A program made the translations under genes and the position numbers. Positions 3,444 through 34,241 of a stretch of DNA of 34,327 bases are shown piece by piece. A model generated the notes under the pieces. That model searched no databases, was not told the origin of the DNA, and saw nothing but the letters and a program-made list of their open reading frames with translations. Source of the DNA: a virus; IMG/VR virus record IMGVR_UViG_3300025082_000032, positions 1-34,327 of that record. One strand, 5' to 3'. Positions within the stretch are counted from its first letter, which is position 1. The number at the start of each line of letters is the position of its first letter.

Positions 3444-3536
3444 CTAAAGTTGCCACAGCGCAAACCACGTTGTTGCCGCTGCTGCCACAATCGCGGACAG
3501 TAGCGGCAAGACGATCTCGTCTATGACTTGTTGCAT
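3444..3536 (-). CDS. Micro membrane protein, minus-strand copy (30 aa)
   Basis: The peptide has a short amphipathic start (MQQVIDEIV) and one membrane-spanning stretch (about residues 9-28, ending W-F-A-L-W). The same arrangement occurs at 30455-30556, where the 33-aa protein shares the EIV.PLLSAIVA core and WFALW end. The start has GAGGA 4 bases upstream on the minus strand. It overlaps the end of the coiled-coil gene, just as the + copy follows its coiled-coil partner. Conservation of gene order and sequence in two loci supports it being real despite its size. Function unknown: a toxin-like, anti-holin-like or exclusion peptide are all possible. Confidence 0.65.
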   Translation of the reverse strand: MQQVIDEIVLPLLSAIVAAAATTWFALWQL

Positions 3537-5712: not shown

Positions 5713-7212
5713 ATGGACCCCGTCCTCGAGTACGCCAAACAGCTACGAGCCGAGCGATCCGGCGAGCGCGACATGTTCGCCGAACTCATGTGGCAGGACG
5801 AGCGTCTTGTGGCAGCGGGCTTCCCGCCCATCAGCGACTGGTGGAAAGGCGTTCTCCGAGATTTCTACGCCGGCGGCAAGATTCGCCTAGTGCCACAAGT
5901 GGGCCGACGTGGCGGCAAAAGCTCGACGTTGTGCCGCGTTGCCGTCTGCGAGGTGCTGCATGGCTCGCACGACGTGCCGCCCGGTGACACGGGCGTTTTT
6001 GCATTCGTGAGCGTCAAGAAGCCGGAGGCGCTCGAGCGGCTGGGCACCATCAGAGAGATTCTCGACGCGCTCGGCGTTGACTACGAGCCGAGCGGCGATG
6101 TGATCCAGCTCAGCGGCACTCGGCGCGCGTTCCGCGTCTACGCTGCTAGTTTTCGGACGAGCGTTGGTTTCACCGGCATCGGCTTGGTCTTCGATGAGGT
6201 CAGCCGTTGGCGTGACAGCGACACGGGCGCCAACCCTGCGACCGAGGTGCTGCGCAGCCTGCGGCCCACCATCGTCACGATGCCCAATGCTCGCGAGTTC
6301 CTGAGCAGCAGCCCGTTCAGCACTCTGGACGCGCATTATGAGGCCTTCGAGCGCGGCGACACGGCCGAGCAGACGGTCGTCAATGCCCCGACGTGGGTGG
6401 CAAATCCCACGCTGAGCAAGGACCGCTGTCGGCAACTCGAGCAAGATGAGGCTACGTTCGATCGCGAGTATGGCGCAGTGCCGATGTCAGGCGGCCTCGC
6501 CACGTTCTTCGACCACCGCGAGTTGGAGGCAGCTGTGCGCACCGCAGCGGAGCTCGGCCCGACCACGGCCGACTACCAGCCAGACGACACGCTTACGGCT
6601 GGCGCTGATTTCGGCTTTGCTCGCGACAGCAGCGCAATCGTCACGATGCGACGGCGAGGCGGTATCTACCGTGTTACCGACCTGCTGGAGCTGCGCCCGG
6701 GGCCCGACGCTGCCCTTAAGCCGAGCGAGACAGTGGCCGAGTTTGCGGCGATGCTCGTGGCTCACGGGATTGACGGCGTCATGGCCGATGCGCACTACCG
6801 CGAGAGTATTATCGAACACCTGGCCGAGGAGCAGCTAGGTTTCCTCGACGCGCCAGCGGACGTGCCCGCGACATACGTGCGACTGCGGACGCTGCTGCAT
6901 CAAGGGCAGCTGGAGTTACCCGAGCACAAGCAGTTGCTGCGCGACCTCAAAGAAGTTCAGGCGAGGCCTACGGCAGCTGGGCGACTGCAGATTGTCCTAC
7001 CTCGCCGGACGGGCGGCGGGCACGCTGACATCGTCTCAGCGCTGGTGCTGGCGGCTTGGCAGCGGGCTGGGAAGGTTGTACAAGCGGCGACGATACTGGA
7101 TAATGGCTGGACCCAGCAGGAGCACGATGAGGTTCAGGCGCTAATCCGCAAGCGGCAGCGAGCGAGGGGCGATGACGGATGGATGAGCGACGACTGTACG
7201 TTTGGGGACTAG
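5713..7212 (+). CDS. Terminase large subunit (499 aa)
   Basis: DNA-packaging motor. N-terminal ATPase: Walker A variant GRRGGKSS at residues 64-71 and Walker B LVFDE with DE at 161-162. C-terminal RNase H-like nuclease: D299 in AGADFGF, D359 in VMADAHYRES and D439 in GGHADIVSALV are the expected metal-binding acids. Full length for the family. The start ATG is preceded by GGGGGAG about 10 bases upstream. Together with the portal at 7877 it confirms a tailed, dsDNA-packaging phage (Caudoviricetes). Confidence 0.95.
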   Translation: MDPVLEYAKQLRAERSGERDMFAELMWQDERLVAAGFPPISDWWKGVLRDFYAGGKIRLVPQVGRRGGKSSTLCRVAVCEVLHGSHDVPPGDTGVFAFVSVKKPEALERLGTIREILDALGVDYEPSGDVIQLSGTRRAFRVYAASFRTSVGFTGIGLVFDEVSRWRDSDTGANPATEVLRSLRPTIVTMPNAREFLSSSPFSTLDAHYEAFERGDTAEQTVVNAPTWVANPTLSKDRCRQLEQDEATFDREYGAVPMSGGLATFFDHRELEAAVRTAAELGPTTADYQPDDTLTAGADFGFARDSSAIVTMRRRGGIYRVTDLLELRPGPDAALKPSETVAEFAAMLVAHGIDGVMADAHYRESIIEHLAEEQLGFLDAPADVPATYVRLRTLLHQGQLELPEHKQLLRDLKEVQARPTAAGRLQIVLPRRTGGGHADIVSALVLAAWQRAGKVVQAATILDNGWTQQEHDEVQALIRKRQRARGDDGWMSDDCTFGD

Positions 7213-28197: not shown

Positions 28198-28409
28198 CAG
28201 GTGACCTAGCACTAGTACGCCAGCTGCGTGCCGAGATACGCGTCCTCGAGCAACAGCTATCAACGACGGTGCAGATGTGCGGCGAGGTGGCTGAGAAATG
28301 CATCGAGCGCCTTGAAGCGGGCGACGTCGAGGGGGCATCGCGTGGCCTCGTCATCCTAGTGCTCAGCGGCGAGCTCGCGCGGAGATGCGAAGGAGGAAGC
28401 AAACGATGA
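28194..28409 (+). CDS. Small coiled-coil early protein (71 aa)
   Basis: GTG at 28194 overlaps the preceding stop. The first half is a coiled coil (LVRQLRAEIRVLEQQLSTTV), followed by a helix with two cysteines. A longer upstream frame exists but lies inside the Cys-rich gene. Its stop overlaps the ATG of the exonuclease-annealase gene (ATGA), so its dosage is tied to that recombination protein. Confidence 0.6.
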   Translation: MTGDLALVRQLRAEIRVLEQQLSTTVQMCGEVAEKCIERLEAGDVEGASRGLVILVLSGELARRCEGGSKR

Positions 28410-29797
28410 CCACGACAATCCTACTAGTCGACCTAAGCAGCGTCTTTTGGCGCGGTTGGCACGCCACAGCAGAAGAGCCTGACGGCAGCGCCGCAGAGCG
28501 CATCACCCTGAGCAAAATCCGCGAGACAGCGCAGGGCTACGACCACGTAGCCATCTGCATCGACTCGCCCAAATCGTGGCGCAGGGACTTGGAGCCTACC
28601 TACAAGGCCAACCGCGAAGCCAAGCCCAAAGGCGCGCTTGACCAGCTCAAACGCTGTCAGGGCATCCTGCAGGCTGACGGCTACCCCATCCTCGGCGCCG
28701 ATGGCTACGAGGCGGATGACGTTATCGCAACGTCGGTGGCGTGGTTGGTCGACGCCATCGAGGGCGAGTATCGCATCAGCATCTACAGCAGCGACAAAGA
28801 CCTGCTTGCGTGCCTTGGCGAGGGCGTTGAGCGCATCAGCGTGGCGACGGGCGAGGTCATGACGGCGGACGACGTCTACAAGAAGCACGGCATCGAGCCT
28901 GCCGAAGTGCCGCACTGGCTCGCGCTGATGGGTGACGCCTCGGACAACATTCGCGGCGTGCATCGCGTGGGCGGCAAGGTGGCAGCGAAGCTCGTGGCAG
29001 AGCACAGCGGCGTGCAGGGCGTGATTGACGCGGTGACCAACGACCCTGACCAATTCACGCCAGCGCTGCGAGGCAACATCATCGAGGCGCGCACATGGCT
29101 GCCCACGTCGCTGCGACTGTCGACGCTGAATGCCGATGCGCCCATCAACTGCGCTGCGATTCTGCAACCACGAGTCATGCAACCATTGGAGACGACGATC
29201 ATGGACGAGCCTGCCGCCGAAGAGATTGACCCACAGCCGCAACAAGCCCCTGCTGTTCGTGAGAGCGAGCCAGAGGCGTTCGAGCGAGGCAACGGCCTTG
29301 CCGTGCGGGATGCGACGTGGGAGCGCGGCTTGGAGCCAACCACGCTGCGCGAGGCCTACAAGCTCGCCTTGGTGGCATTCAACAGCCGCATGTTCAGCGC
29401 CTACGGCAACGCCGAGGCGGTCATGATGACCATTCTTGCCGGCCGCAGTCTTGGCCTCGACGCAATGCTGGCGCTTCGAAGCATCGCGCTCATCAAGGGC
29501 AAGCCGACGCTATCGGCGCAGCTCATGATGGGCTTATGTCTGCGGCATCCGGCCTGCGAATACTTCGCCCTGGTCGAGTCGTCCTCAGAGCGCGCCACCT
29601 ACGAGACGAAGCGCACGGGCAACCCCACCGAGACGCGCATCACGTGGACCATGGCCGACGCCAAGCGGGCCAAACTCGGGGGCGACAATTGGCAGAAGTA
29701 TCCCGCTGCCATGCTGCGAGCTCGCTGCGTGGCTGACCTTGCGCGCGCCGTCTACCCCGACGCGACCCACAACGTCTACGTGGAGGGCGAGCTGTGA
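28406..29797 (+). CDS. 5'-3' exonuclease fused to RecT-like annealing domain (463 aa)
   Basis: N-terminal domain (about 1-255) is a FEN-type 5' nuclease with the acidic set in place: D9 (LLVDLSS), D53 with the basic R..YKANR arch region, E102/D104/D105 (GYEADDV), D130/D132 (SSDKD), D177/D180 (MGDASDN), then a helix-3-turn-helix (GVHRVGGKVAAKLV). A Glu/Pro/Gln linker (about 262-300) leads to a C-terminal region (about 312-463) with ILAGRSLGLDAMLALRSI, IKGKPTLSAQLM, DAKRAKLGGDNWQKYPAAML and ADLARAVYPD. That pattern matches a phage RecT-like single-strand annealing family I know from sequence, in which the block reads GKPSLSAALI ... DARKAGL..KDNWKKFPRNML. Together they resemble a lambda exo/beta pair on one chain. 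GGAGG precedes the ATG. The nuclease call is very firm, the annealase call moderate. Confidence 0.8.
   Translation: MTTTILLVDLSSVFWRGWHATAEEPDGSAAERITLSKIRETAQGYDHVAICIDSPKSWRRDLEPTYKANREAKPKGALDQLKRCQGILQADGYPILGADGYEADDVIATSVAWLVDAIEGEYRISIYSSDKDLLACLGEGVERISVATGEVMTADDVYKKHGIEPAEVPHWLALMGDASDNIRGVHRVGGKVAAKLVAEHSGVQGVIDAVTNDPDQFTPALRGNIIEARTWLPTSLRLSTLNADAPINCAAILQPRVMQPLETTIMDEPAAEEIDPQPQQAPAVRESEPEAFERGNGLAVRDATWERGLEPTTLREAYKLALVAFNSRMFSAYGNAEAVMMTILAGRSLGLDAMLALRSIALIKGKPTLSAQLMMGLCLRHPACEYFALVESSSERATYETKRTGNPTETRITWTMADAKRAKLGGDNWQKYPAAMLRARCVADLARAVYPDATHNVYVEGEL
29201..29797 (+). other. Possible internal translation start for annealase-only product
   Basis: M266 of the fusion is encoded at 29201, right at the linker, and is preceded by GGAGACGACGATC, a plausible ribosome site (compare GGAGACGAC before the ATG at 27240). 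It would release a 198-aa annealing domain without the nuclease. No experimental support. Confidence 0.35.
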
Positions 29798-32002: not shown

Positions 32003-32857
32003 GTGGTTTGGTTCAGGCTAGACGACAAGGCGCACTCGCACGCCAAGGTCATAGAGGTGGGCAACCGGGCCTACGGCGCATGGGTTCGCATGGGCTGCTG
32101 GTCGAGCGATCACCTGACAGATGGGCGCATCCCGGTAGCGGTTGCAATCATGTTTTCCGAAGACAATGACGACATCCGGGCCCTTTTGCGAGTCGGTTTG
32201 CTCGATGAAATTGACGACGACTCGTACCAAGTCCACGATTTCGTCGACTACAACCCCACCGCCAAGCAGGTGAAACGTCAGCAAAAGCAACGCGTTGATG
32301 CCGGTCGCATAGGGGGCAAGCGGAAGGCTAGCAACTCGCTAGCAAACGCCAAGCGGAACGCTAGCGAGACACCTAGCAAAACGCAAGCAAAACCCTGCCC
32401 CGTACCCGTACCCGTACCCGTACCCGTACCCGGATCCACCTTATCGTCGGCTTCGCCGACTCGTGAAGCTGACGCTTCACTTGCGGCGGCCATCGCCGAG
32501 GTGTTCGAGTTTTGGAAAGACGAGACTGGGCACGCCAAGGCCAGGCTCACTGCCGACCGGAAGCGGCGCATCAAGGCGCGCATCAAAGAGGGCTTTAGCT
32601 CACGGGACCTGTGCTCCGCCATCCGTGGCAGAAGGGGCAACCCGCATCTGATGGGCCAGAACGACACGTCCACGGTGTACGACAAGATCGCAACGCTGCT
32701 GCGGGACGGTGAGCAAGTCGAGAGCCTAATGGCGCTCGACAACGGCGGGAGCGCGGCGGCGTCGACTCCCCAAGTGCAACGAGCAATGCGGCTACTAGCA
32801 GAGGAGCAAGCAGAACATGACGCAGGGCGAAGCGGCAAAGATGATGGCCATGCTTGA
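32003..32857 (+). CDS. Phage replication initiator (284 aa)
   Basis: Origin-binding protein in the lambda O / DnaD-like tradition. The N-terminal part (about 1-90) fits a winged-helix domain (WFRLDDKAHSHAKVIEVG, GAWVRMGCWSSDHL, DGRIPV, LLRVGLLDEID, VHDFVDYNPT). Then come a basic linker encoded by an 11-bp-period array and a PVPVPVPVPVPG stretch. The C-terminal domain (about 160-250: VFEFWKDETGHAKARLTADR, RIKARIKEGFSSRDLCSAI, YDKIATLL) resembles C-terminal domains of phage initiators. GTG start two bases after the upstream stop, with GAGGG. Overlaps the helicase loader gene by 41 bases. Confidence 0.8.
   Translation: MVWFRLDDKAHSHAKVIEVGNRAYGAWVRMGCWSSDHLTDGRIPVAVAIMFSEDNDDIRALLRVGLLDEIDDDSYQVHDFVDYNPTAKQVKRQQKQRVDAGRIGGKRKASNSLANAKRNASETPSKTQAKPCPVPVPVPVPVPGSTLSSASPTREADASLAAAIAEVFEFWKDETGHAKARLTADRKRRIKARIKEGFSSRDLCSAIRGRRGNPHLMGQNDTSTVYDKIATLLRDGEQVESLMALDNGGSAAASTPQVQRAMRLLAEEQAEHDAGRSGKDDGHA
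32316..32480. other. Candidate replication origin inside the initiator gene
   Basis: Seven 11-bp units of consensus GC(T/A)AGCaaaac run from 32316 to 32392, including GCTAGC at 32327, 32338 and 32360 and CTAGC at 32373. Five tandem GTACCC units follow (32402-32431), then two hairpins: GTCGGC-TTC-GCCGAC (32446-32460) and GTGAAGC-TGAC-GCTTCAC (32463-32480). An 11-base period cannot be a codon-level repeat, so selection at DNA level is likely. Lambda-type origins also lie within the initiator gene. Confidence 0.6.
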
Positions 32858-33335
32858 TTTGGCCTTTCCCAATTTCAAATCCAAGCCGGGCACATTCGAA
32901 CTCTATGAGCGGATGTTGCTCAAGTTCGATCACGACGCAGCGCGCGAAGCGATTGAGACGCACATTGCCACAGCGAAGTTCTTCCCCACCATCGCAGAGC
33001 TGCTCGACGCAATCGCCCCAGCAGGCGGCGGCGTAGCCCTTGAGCAATGGGGCCACCTCTGCCGCGCCATCAGCGACGTAGGCAGCTACCAGCCAGCGCC
33101 GCGCTTCCGTGACCCCGTGACGGCGCATTGCGTGGCCACGATGGGCTGGAAGGAGTTGTGCAGGTCAGTCAACGATGTGGCCGACCGCGCGCGCTTCTGC
33201 GAACTCTATGGGCAGGTAGCGTCACGTGACAGGCTCGAGCAACGCGGTGGCCAGCCGAGGACGCTGGAAGAGCGCAGGGTGCCGCGGCTGTTGGCGTCGA
33301 TTGGCAAGGATATGGCGAGCATTGGAGGTGGGTGA
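32817..33335 (+). CDS. Helicase loader-like protein (172 aa)
   Basis: N-terminal LDLAFPNFKSKPGTFELYER and then IETHIATAKFFPTIAELLDAI match the helical pattern of phage helicase loader/inhibitor proteins (G39P/DnaI-type N-terminus, lambda P functional class). It would bring the host replicative helicase to the initiator at the origin. It overlaps the initiator gene by 41 bases, with GGAG before the ATG at 32817. The C-terminal half is helical and charged. The contig's first 13 bases come from near its 3' end. Confidence 0.7.
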   Translation: MTQGEAAKMMAMLDLAFPNFKSKPGTFELYERMLLKFDHDAAREAIETHIATAKFFPTIAELLDAIAPAGGGVALEQWGHLCRAISDVGSYQPAPRFRDPVTAHCVATMGWKELCRSVNDVADRARFCELYGQVASRDRLEQRGGQPRTLEERRVPRLLASIGKDMASIGGG

Positions 33336-33655
33336 TGGGCGACAAGCTGACAGCAGAGGACCACGAGCGCCTTGAAGGCTGCCGCGTTGTCGCGAGCATC
33401 AGCGGCGGCAAAGACAGCGCGGCGCTGTCGCTGTGGCTGGCTGAGCAGGGTATCGACCACGACCGAGTGTTTGCTGACACTGGCTGGGAGCACCCTGCAA
33501 CGTACGAGTATCTGCGCGGGCCGCTGACAGAGAAGATTGGGCCTATCGTCGAGGTCAAAAGCACGGTCGGCGGGTTCGCCGACTGGTGCCGAAAAAAAGG
33601 AATGTTCCCGGGTACCAACCCCCGTGTCTCTTCCATGACAGGGGGAAGCGGATGA
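33335..33655 (+). pseudogene. Truncated PAPS reductase/ATP-pyrophosphatase family protein, N-terminal part (106 aa)
   Basis: PP-loop motif SISGGKDS with ALSLWLAEQG and VFADTGWEHPATYEYL identifies the PAPS-reductase-like adenine nucleotide alpha-hydrolase family, in phages often linked to DNA or base modification. The reading then reaches ADWCRKKGMFP, normally followed by about 100 more residues including a cysteine motif, but here the frame ends after GTNPRVSSMTGGSG. GGAGG precedes the ATG at 33335, and a GTG at 33332 overlaps the upstream stop. The remainder of the fold appears deleted, with its C-terminus in the next frame. Confidence 0.7.
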
Positions 33656-33777
33656 CGCCAAAGCCTATCGACGAAGTTGTTGCATGGTCGCGCACCGCGT
33701 ACGGCGGCAGGCAGCTCCTACTGCTGGACACTGAACCACCTGGCTGCGTCCGCTGGGGCCTGTGCGAGGGCGCATGA
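33652..33777 (+). pseudogene. C-terminal remnant of the PAPS reductase-like gene (41 aa if translated)
   Basis: The frame reads KPIDEVVAWSRTAYGGRQLL and CVRWGLCE, which I recognise as the usual C-terminal end of phage PAPS-reductase-like proteins. It is in the -1 frame relative to the N-terminal part. The ATG at 33652 overlaps that part's TGA (ATGA) and follows GGGGGAAG, so it may be translated as a separate peptide. An A7 run at 33592-33598 is where a -1 shift or a base-calling error would join the frames into one shortened protein. Confidence 0.6.
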
Positions 33778-33791
33778 TGCGAGGTGAGCGC

Positions 33792-34241
33792 ATGAAGCTA
33801 GAGGTTGTCCCGATGACGAGATCGGAAGCGCAAGCGTTCATTGCGCGATGCCATCGCCACCACAAGCCGCACGTGAGTGACATCTTTCGGCTTGGGGCGG
33901 CAGTTGGCGGGTCTGTTGTTGGCTGCGCCGCCATGGGACGACCCATGGCTAGGGCGCTGTGTGACGGATGGACACTAGAGGTGGTCCGATTGTGCATTTC
34001 GGACGATGCGCCTCGCAACTCTCACTCGTGGCTTTTGGCCAAGTCGTGGAGGGCAGCTCAGGCACTGGGCTATCGCAAGCTCATTACCTACACGCTGCCC
34101 GAGGAAGGCGGCGCTTCGCTCCGTGGAGCAGGGTGGCGCTGCGTTGGCCAAGCGGGGGGAGGATCGTGGTCGTGTCCGTCAAGGCCAAGAGTAGACACGC
34201 ATCCGCTACAAGTCAAAATGAAGTGGGAGGTTGGCGCATGA
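33792..34241 (+). CDS. XF1762-family, GNAT-like protein (149 aa)
   Basis: Pattern VVPMTRSEAQAFIARCHRHH, then FRLGAAVGGSVVGCAAMGRP, ALCDGWTLEVVRLC, SWLLAKSWRAAQALGYRKLI, TYTLPEEGGASLRGAGWR and GGGSWSCPSRPR is that of the phage XF1762 family, an acetyltransferase-like fold of unknown substrate. I chose the ATG at 33792 for the GAGGTGAG four bases upstream; an ATG at 33774 overlaps the preceding stop. Last gene before the circular junction, with its 3' end inside the terminal repeat. Confidence 0.8.
   Translation: MKLEVVPMTRSEAQAFIARCHRHHKPHVSDIFRLGAAVGGSVVGCAAMGRPMARALCDGWTLEVVRLCISDDAPRNSHSWLLAKSWRAAQALGYRKLITYTLPEEGGASLRGAGWRCVGQAGGGSWSCPSRPRVDTHPLQVKMKWEVGA

Follow-up and report, generated by a model that had tools for sequence, protein, structure and literature searches.

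In phage lambda, the origin repeats lie within the O gene, between the parts that encode the N-terminal DNA-binding domain and the C-terminal domain of the initiator, and the next gene encodes the helicase loader. Bacillus phage SPP1 has its oriL inside initiator gene 38, adjoining the gene for the helicase loader G39P; its origin boxes and AT-rich region, as generally described, differ from those of the element considered here. In the plasmid pSK41, the N-terminal domain of Rep, a RepA_N initiator, binds origin boxes located centrally in the rep gene, and Rep can do without the linker that the origin encodes (PMC5703833). Here we describe a 165-bp stretch of viral DNA that, judged from its sequence and from its relatives, is very probably the cis-acting replication origin of the phage, bound by the initiator in whose linker-coding part it lies. 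The DNA analysed, referred to below as the window, is 34,327 nucleotides long.

The initiator gene (32003–32857, plus strand, GTG start) encodes a protein of 284 amino acids with an N-terminal domain, a linker and a C-terminal domain. Most of the protein (residues 2–217) matches the profile of the replication initiation protein family phrog_2447 (E = 3.6e-31), with further profile matches to phrog_3926 (E = 4.6e-18) and phrog_16167 (E = 1.6e-16). The N-terminal domain (32003–32311, plus strand), which we propose as the repeat-binding module, is predicted to be a winged helix on the basis of its AlphaFold2 model (pLDDT 94.3, pTM 0.84). The fold matches of this model are weak (Z of about 6), the plasmid initiators 4pt7, 4pta and 5kbj being tied with unrelated winged helices, and a sequence-based search of solved structures gave no relevant match. 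The next gene (32817–33335, plus strand) encodes a probable helicase loader of 172 amino acids, which matches the helicase loader family phrog_2289 (E = 5e-8); its match to Pfam Inhibitor_G39P, the family of SPP1 G39P, falls below the cut-off (E = 0.099). This product is likely a replisome-loading partner, and in relatives of the initiator DnaB is encoded adjacent or nearby. Elsewhere in the window, we noted a Mom-like DNA modification protein (33762–34241; phrog_1384, E = 3.4e-36), a short PAPS-reductase-like protein of 107 amino acids (33332–33655) that matches part of the family profile and may be truncated, and a 470-amino-acid protein (28385–29797) whose first half matches an exonuclease family and whose end matches RecT-like annealing families, possibly as a fusion.

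The element begins with seven 11-bp repeats. The initial five (32316–32370, plus strand; GCAAGCggaag, GCTAGCaactc, GCTAGCaaacg, CCAAGCggaac and GCTAGCgagac) are in exact phase, with AGC cores at 32319, 32330, 32341, 32352 and 32363, while the other two (32372–32393, plus strand; CCTAGCaaaac and GCAAGCaaaac) follow a 1-bp slip, their cores lying at 32375, after a 12-bp step, and at 32386, after a further 11 bp. The sequence-only reading, which had placed all seven units in exact phase, was therefore correct as to their number but correct as to phase for five of them. It had also argued that the periodicity is not driven by protein repeats, and this is borne out by the unit cores, which occupy all three codon phases. 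The array is the strongest 84-bp stretch of 11-bp periodicity in the whole window; its lag score was reached in 34 of 5000 synonymous-codon shuffles and in none of the 5000 in which codon order or bases were shuffled.

Past the array lies the C-tract CCCC(GTACCC)5 (32398–32431, plus strand). Its five GTACCC units (32402–32431) are exact, as had been reported, and its reverse strand carries six G3 tracts with 3-nt loops, which constitutes a G-quadruplex motif. It is the only site with at least four C3 tracts on either strand of the whole window. The two perfect hairpins described earlier are likewise exact. Hairpin 1 (32446–32460, GTCGGC-TTC-GCCGAC) reads GTCGGC(GAA)GCCGAC on the minus strand, giving a C(GAA)G loop and containing GCGAAGC, and hairpin 2 (32463–32480, GTGAAGC-TGAC-GCTTCAC) reads GTGAAGC(GTCA)GCTTCAC on the minus strand, giving a C(GNNA)G loop. 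A contig with an approximately 98% identical initiator keeps the array and both hairpins and has four GTACCC units compared to the five in the window. We also noted two 13-nt arms (32270–32282 and 32468–32480) that are 92% complementary and 185 nt apart, the second of which overlaps the 3′ half of hairpin 2; this pairing may be due to chance.

We surveyed the corresponding region in 133 non-redundant homologs of the initiator N-terminal domain, with loci taken from viral contigs (80), bacterial genomes (80, mostly actinobacterial) and annotated phages; the host range of the bacterial genomes is biased, since actinophage-like N-terminal domains supplied the profile that retrieved them. The initiator protein matched 427 phage records, most of which contain a relative of this domain. 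The homologs display a fixed order, with an array of 11- or 12-bp repeats followed by a coding-strand run of C3 tracts and then, in nearly half, by a hairpin. A repeat class could be assigned in 103 of the 133 homologs, versus 1.5% of random windows, and a C-tract in 108; 89 have both, and all three components are present in 42. A period excess past the N-terminal domain, defined as a score above the 99th percentile of control windows, was observed at 11 bp in 30% and at 12 bp in 21% of homologs, compared to 0–5% for ten other tested periods. The repeats sit at the homologous place within the initiator gene in most relatives, and their half-sites vary between phages (AGCAA, GTCAC, GTAAC, GTTCG, GTCCC and others), several occurring in both orientations. 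Repeat class tracks the tree of N-terminal domains (42 changes versus 65.3 ± 2.4 when shuffled, minimum 58), an agreement that is expected from linkage alone because the repeats and the domain share one gene. In one locus (L008), a similar C-terminal domain is fused to a different, lambda-O-like N-terminal domain and the repeats are lambda-type by eye; the type of repeat may thus follow the N-terminal domain. The complete element is also found on a circular 86-kb plasmid of Saccharopolyspora pogona. Taken across these sequences, the GTACCC tract and the hairpins are regular members of the element rather than extras.

Coding-strand C3 tracts with 1–4-nt spacers were counted between +280 and +700, and at least four were present in 88 and at least three in 108 of the 133 loci. 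Elsewhere, the four-tract form has a background of about 0–2% per 100-bp bin, and its G version is almost absent. The tract is also the sole site with four or more C3 tracts, both strands considered, in three out of the four complete phage genomes; the fourth, 1191A, has three tracts only. The tract units differ across the family (CCCGA, by eye the commonest, CCCGT, CCCGTA, CCCGAT, CCCTT and others), resulting in periods of 5 and 6. The distance from the last half-site to the tract is about 8–9 bp for the GTCAC and GTTCG classes, and for the AGCAA class it is most often 12 bp; the last AGCAA of the window array starts at −12, the commonest distance for its class. Directly past the tract, A+T averages 57% in the first 10 bp versus 34% overall, and this AT-richness spans only about 30 bp (family mean). 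The earlier statement that there is no obvious AT-rich unwinding region holds for the DNA adjoining the repeats, which is the C/G tract, but not for the short patch past the tract, which is AT-rich family-wide.

The C-tract is absent from the gene in 25 of the 133 homologs, 7 of which have a coding-strand G-rich run, in some cases probably by chance. In the clade formed by L034, L022, L038 and L095 such a run (e.g. GGGACGGGACGGGAC) replaces the C-tract with the repeats still upstream, and the strand of the tract may have been flipped. Four other loci (L023, L024, L055 and L063) contain a perfect DnaA box (TTATCCACA, on either strand) 26–37 bp past the C-tract. DnaA boxes were rejected as a general part of the element, since these four are among just 14 found in 108 loci. 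Several viral contigs that have no N-terminal domain nearby (L214, L218, L239, L243, L250, L265, L288 and others) carry (CCCGA)n runs near terminator-like stems, some with more than one run each, perhaps representing a different use of the same repeat.

A perfect stem of at least 7 bp was found just past the tract in 44% of the 108 loci versus 4.4% of random windows, and a 9-bp perfect stem in 25% versus 0.56%; in about half of the elements the search detected no hairpin. The stem sequences vary between loci and the loops hardly do so. Of 73 loops of 3–4 nt, when read on the G-rich minus strand, 49 have the form GN(N)A (GTTA, GTA, GTCA, GAA and others), 13 the form TNNA and 11 some other form. 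GN(N)A loops were found on the plus strand in only 4 of the 73, and among 118 background hairpins in 4 (minus strand) and 6 (plus strand). By DNA folding energy, the minus strand was favoured in 34 cases and the plus strand in only 3, with the remainder tied. The hairpins of phage N4 need a C-G closing pair and a loop with a 5′ G and a 3′ A in order to extrude and to be stable, and they were seen to extrude at sub-physiological superhelical density (PMC4496689). Both window hairpins conform to this rule on one strand, the minus strand, and the GCGAAGC of hairpin 1 corresponds to d(GCGAAGC), which the title of a paper cited by PMC6479982 terms an extraordinarily stable structure. The possibility that the plus-strand loop supplies a primase trinucleotide (CTA/CTG) was discarded, as the minus-strand GN(N)A rule fits the loops better. 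Stem mismatches of the G-T versus A-C type, which bear on whether stems form in RNA or DNA, numbered five, too few to tell.

Comparison of these sequences suggests that selection acts on the DNA and not on the protein, because the tract occupies all three frames (its first C falls in them 28, 38 and 36 times), continues beyond an early ORF end and occurs, with the rest of the element, in non-coding DNA. The tract is retained past the ORF end in six homologs, all without a canonical hairpin by eye. When a 20-base tract pattern was searched over viral contigs with the protein ignored, 92 of 125 sites lay near a homolog of the N-terminal domain, 90 of them on the same strand. Among the exceptions are L192 (minus strand, near 6487) and L240 (minus strand, near 3453), in each of which a complete element consisting of GTTCG repeats, tract and C(TAAC)G hairpin sits in apparently non-coding DNA. 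These two genomes encode the initiator elsewhere (L298, L297), at a distance from the element of 6.3 kb on the contig in one genome and, in the other, of about 6.6 kb if it is circular and 26 kb otherwise. Their initiator, of 209 amino acids, has the N-terminal domain almost directly joined to the C-terminal domain and lacks linker, array and tract; the presence of the origin therefore seems to be the reason for the linker. Relatives that keep the protein and lose the periodicity had been named as a case against an embedded origin. Such a loss occurs in these two phages, but it supports the idea of an origin because the whole element is intact elsewhere in their genomes. Streptomyces phage SF3 may be a third relocated case: the C-tract is missing from its initiator, and about 10 kb from there a 1-kb gap devoid of genes contains a C-run whose flanks are similar. 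Among ten relatives with no C-tract or a doubtful one, a C-run elsewhere was found in SF3 only.

These observations bear directly on whether the repeats could be a by-product of the protein, with a low-complexity linker rich in Pro/Val/Asp and in Ala/Ser/Lys/Asn yielding DNA repeats that expand by slippage. Slippage does act, as is evident from the four versus five GTACCC copies in near-identical contigs. However, there is no frame preference, units of period 5 as well as of period 11 occur, and the tract runs past the ORF end; relocated non-coding elements accompanied by a linker-free initiator refute this explanation for the family as a whole, and we give it almost no weight for the window. 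An RNA-level signal, in which a C-rich Rho-type or ribosome-related sequence and a stem regulate expression of the initiator gene, is very unlikely. The C-rich strand is indeed the RNA-like strand, and the TAAC and TGAC loops on the plus strand resemble the UNAC tetraloops of RNA, but the loops obey a rule for DNA, and do so on the opposite strand (49 of 73 versus 4 of 73), where the GTTA and GTCA loops are not RNA GNRA loops, the DNA folding energies favour that same strand (34 versus 3), and the element is retained when relocated away from the gene.

Phased arrays of 11- or 12-bp repeats are typical of ParR-type centromeres, and the array could accordingly be read as a partition centromere or an operator that is protein-bound for segregation or for autoregulation of transcription. 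The predicted winged-helix domain would suit such a function, and so would the similar tract in the gene-free gap of SF3. We nevertheless regard it as unlikely, given that the gene is a member of replication-initiator families, that a helicase-loader-like gene comes next and that DnaB is close by in relatives, and given that neither the C-tract nor the hairpin has an obvious role in a centromere or operator. Moreover, three of the four phages for which the whole gene list was read have an annotated integrase, so that partition is unneeded there.

An origin embedded in the initiator gene, as initially proposed, appears to be the best reading in light of the phrog_2447 match, the predicted winged helix and the conservation of the element independently of the protein; comparison with relatives strengthens this reading well beyond what the window by itself allows. 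The winged-helix domain would bind the 11-bp repeats, and since the array stops at an almost constant distance from the tract, the bound initiator would be placed to open the adjoining DNA beside it. The G-rich minus strand of the tract could then fold as a G-quadruplex and the adjoining C(GN(N)A)G-type hairpin extrude from supercoiled DNA, the two together keeping the strands apart or marking a single-strand entry point, while the downstream helicase loader, judging from the order of the genes and from relatives that encode DnaB nearby, would bring a DnaB-type helicase. Extended to the whole of this large phage family, the proposal is tentative and may well be wrong: non-B DNA would replace a long AT-rich region in opening the origin, with the initiator-bound array bordering a G-quadruplex tract of fixed strand and an extruded C(GN(N)A)G hairpin of that strand, and with tract and hairpin holding the bubble or presenting a priming or helicase entry site.

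A switch in GC skew, which the sequence-only reading had proposed as a check of the site, was seen neither in the window nor in the complete phage genomes examined (in Footloose, one of the four, the site is not marked by the pattern). Across the family, a slight drop in skew is seen on the right-hand side of the site, whereas a simple bidirectional origin is expected to produce a rise. A rolling-circle origin, considered because of the repeats and the hairpin, was rejected, since scans of the family gave no match to a rolling-circle initiator. We found no description of the element in the open-access literature searched. It provides a specific candidate for the origin of a phage family that is widespread and mostly actinobacterial, and for which we found no origin described in that literature; reading it as an origin would explain the odd low-complexity linkers of these initiators. 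The relocated elements, and the tracts without an ORF, offer natural experiments on the role that tracts of the G-quadruplex type and extruded hairpins may have at the origin of a bacterial virus. A short cis element used with a single initiator could also serve as a replicon module for actinobacteria.

Compared with the known systems, the locus shares with lambda O the location of the repeats inside the initiator gene, between the N- and C-terminal domains, and the helicase loader gene next to it. Unlike the approximately 18-bp palindromes of lambda, its repeats are 11–12 bp long, and neither symmetric repeats of about 18 bp nor an AT-rich unwinding region adjacent to them was found; instead, a C/G tract with a G-quadruplex motif adjoins the repeats and is followed by the short AT-rich patch and the hairpin. 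It resembles SPP1 gene 38 with oriL in having the probable origin within the initiator gene and a probable helicase loader adjoining, the match to G39P being sub-threshold here. The linker-free initiators suggest that nature has arrived at the same dispensability of the linker as that described for pSK41 Rep. By contrast, none of 39 N-terminal domains scanned matched Pfam RepA_N, and the passages of PMC5703833 consulted describe no C-tract or hairpin for pSK41. Because of the missing RepA_N domain, the middling fold similarity and the different repeat length and adjacent region, we place the element in neither the lambda O nor the RepA_N group. Its hairpins share with the N4 early promoter hairpins the C-G closing pair and the one-stranded loop with a 5′ G and a 3′ A (PMC4496689), but they adjoin a putative origin and a G-rich tract, their loops are often 4 nt long, and an N4-type virion RNA polymerase is not implied. 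The layout has precedents in pSK41 Rep and lambda O, and from its sequence the element appears to be a variation on the embedded-origin design.
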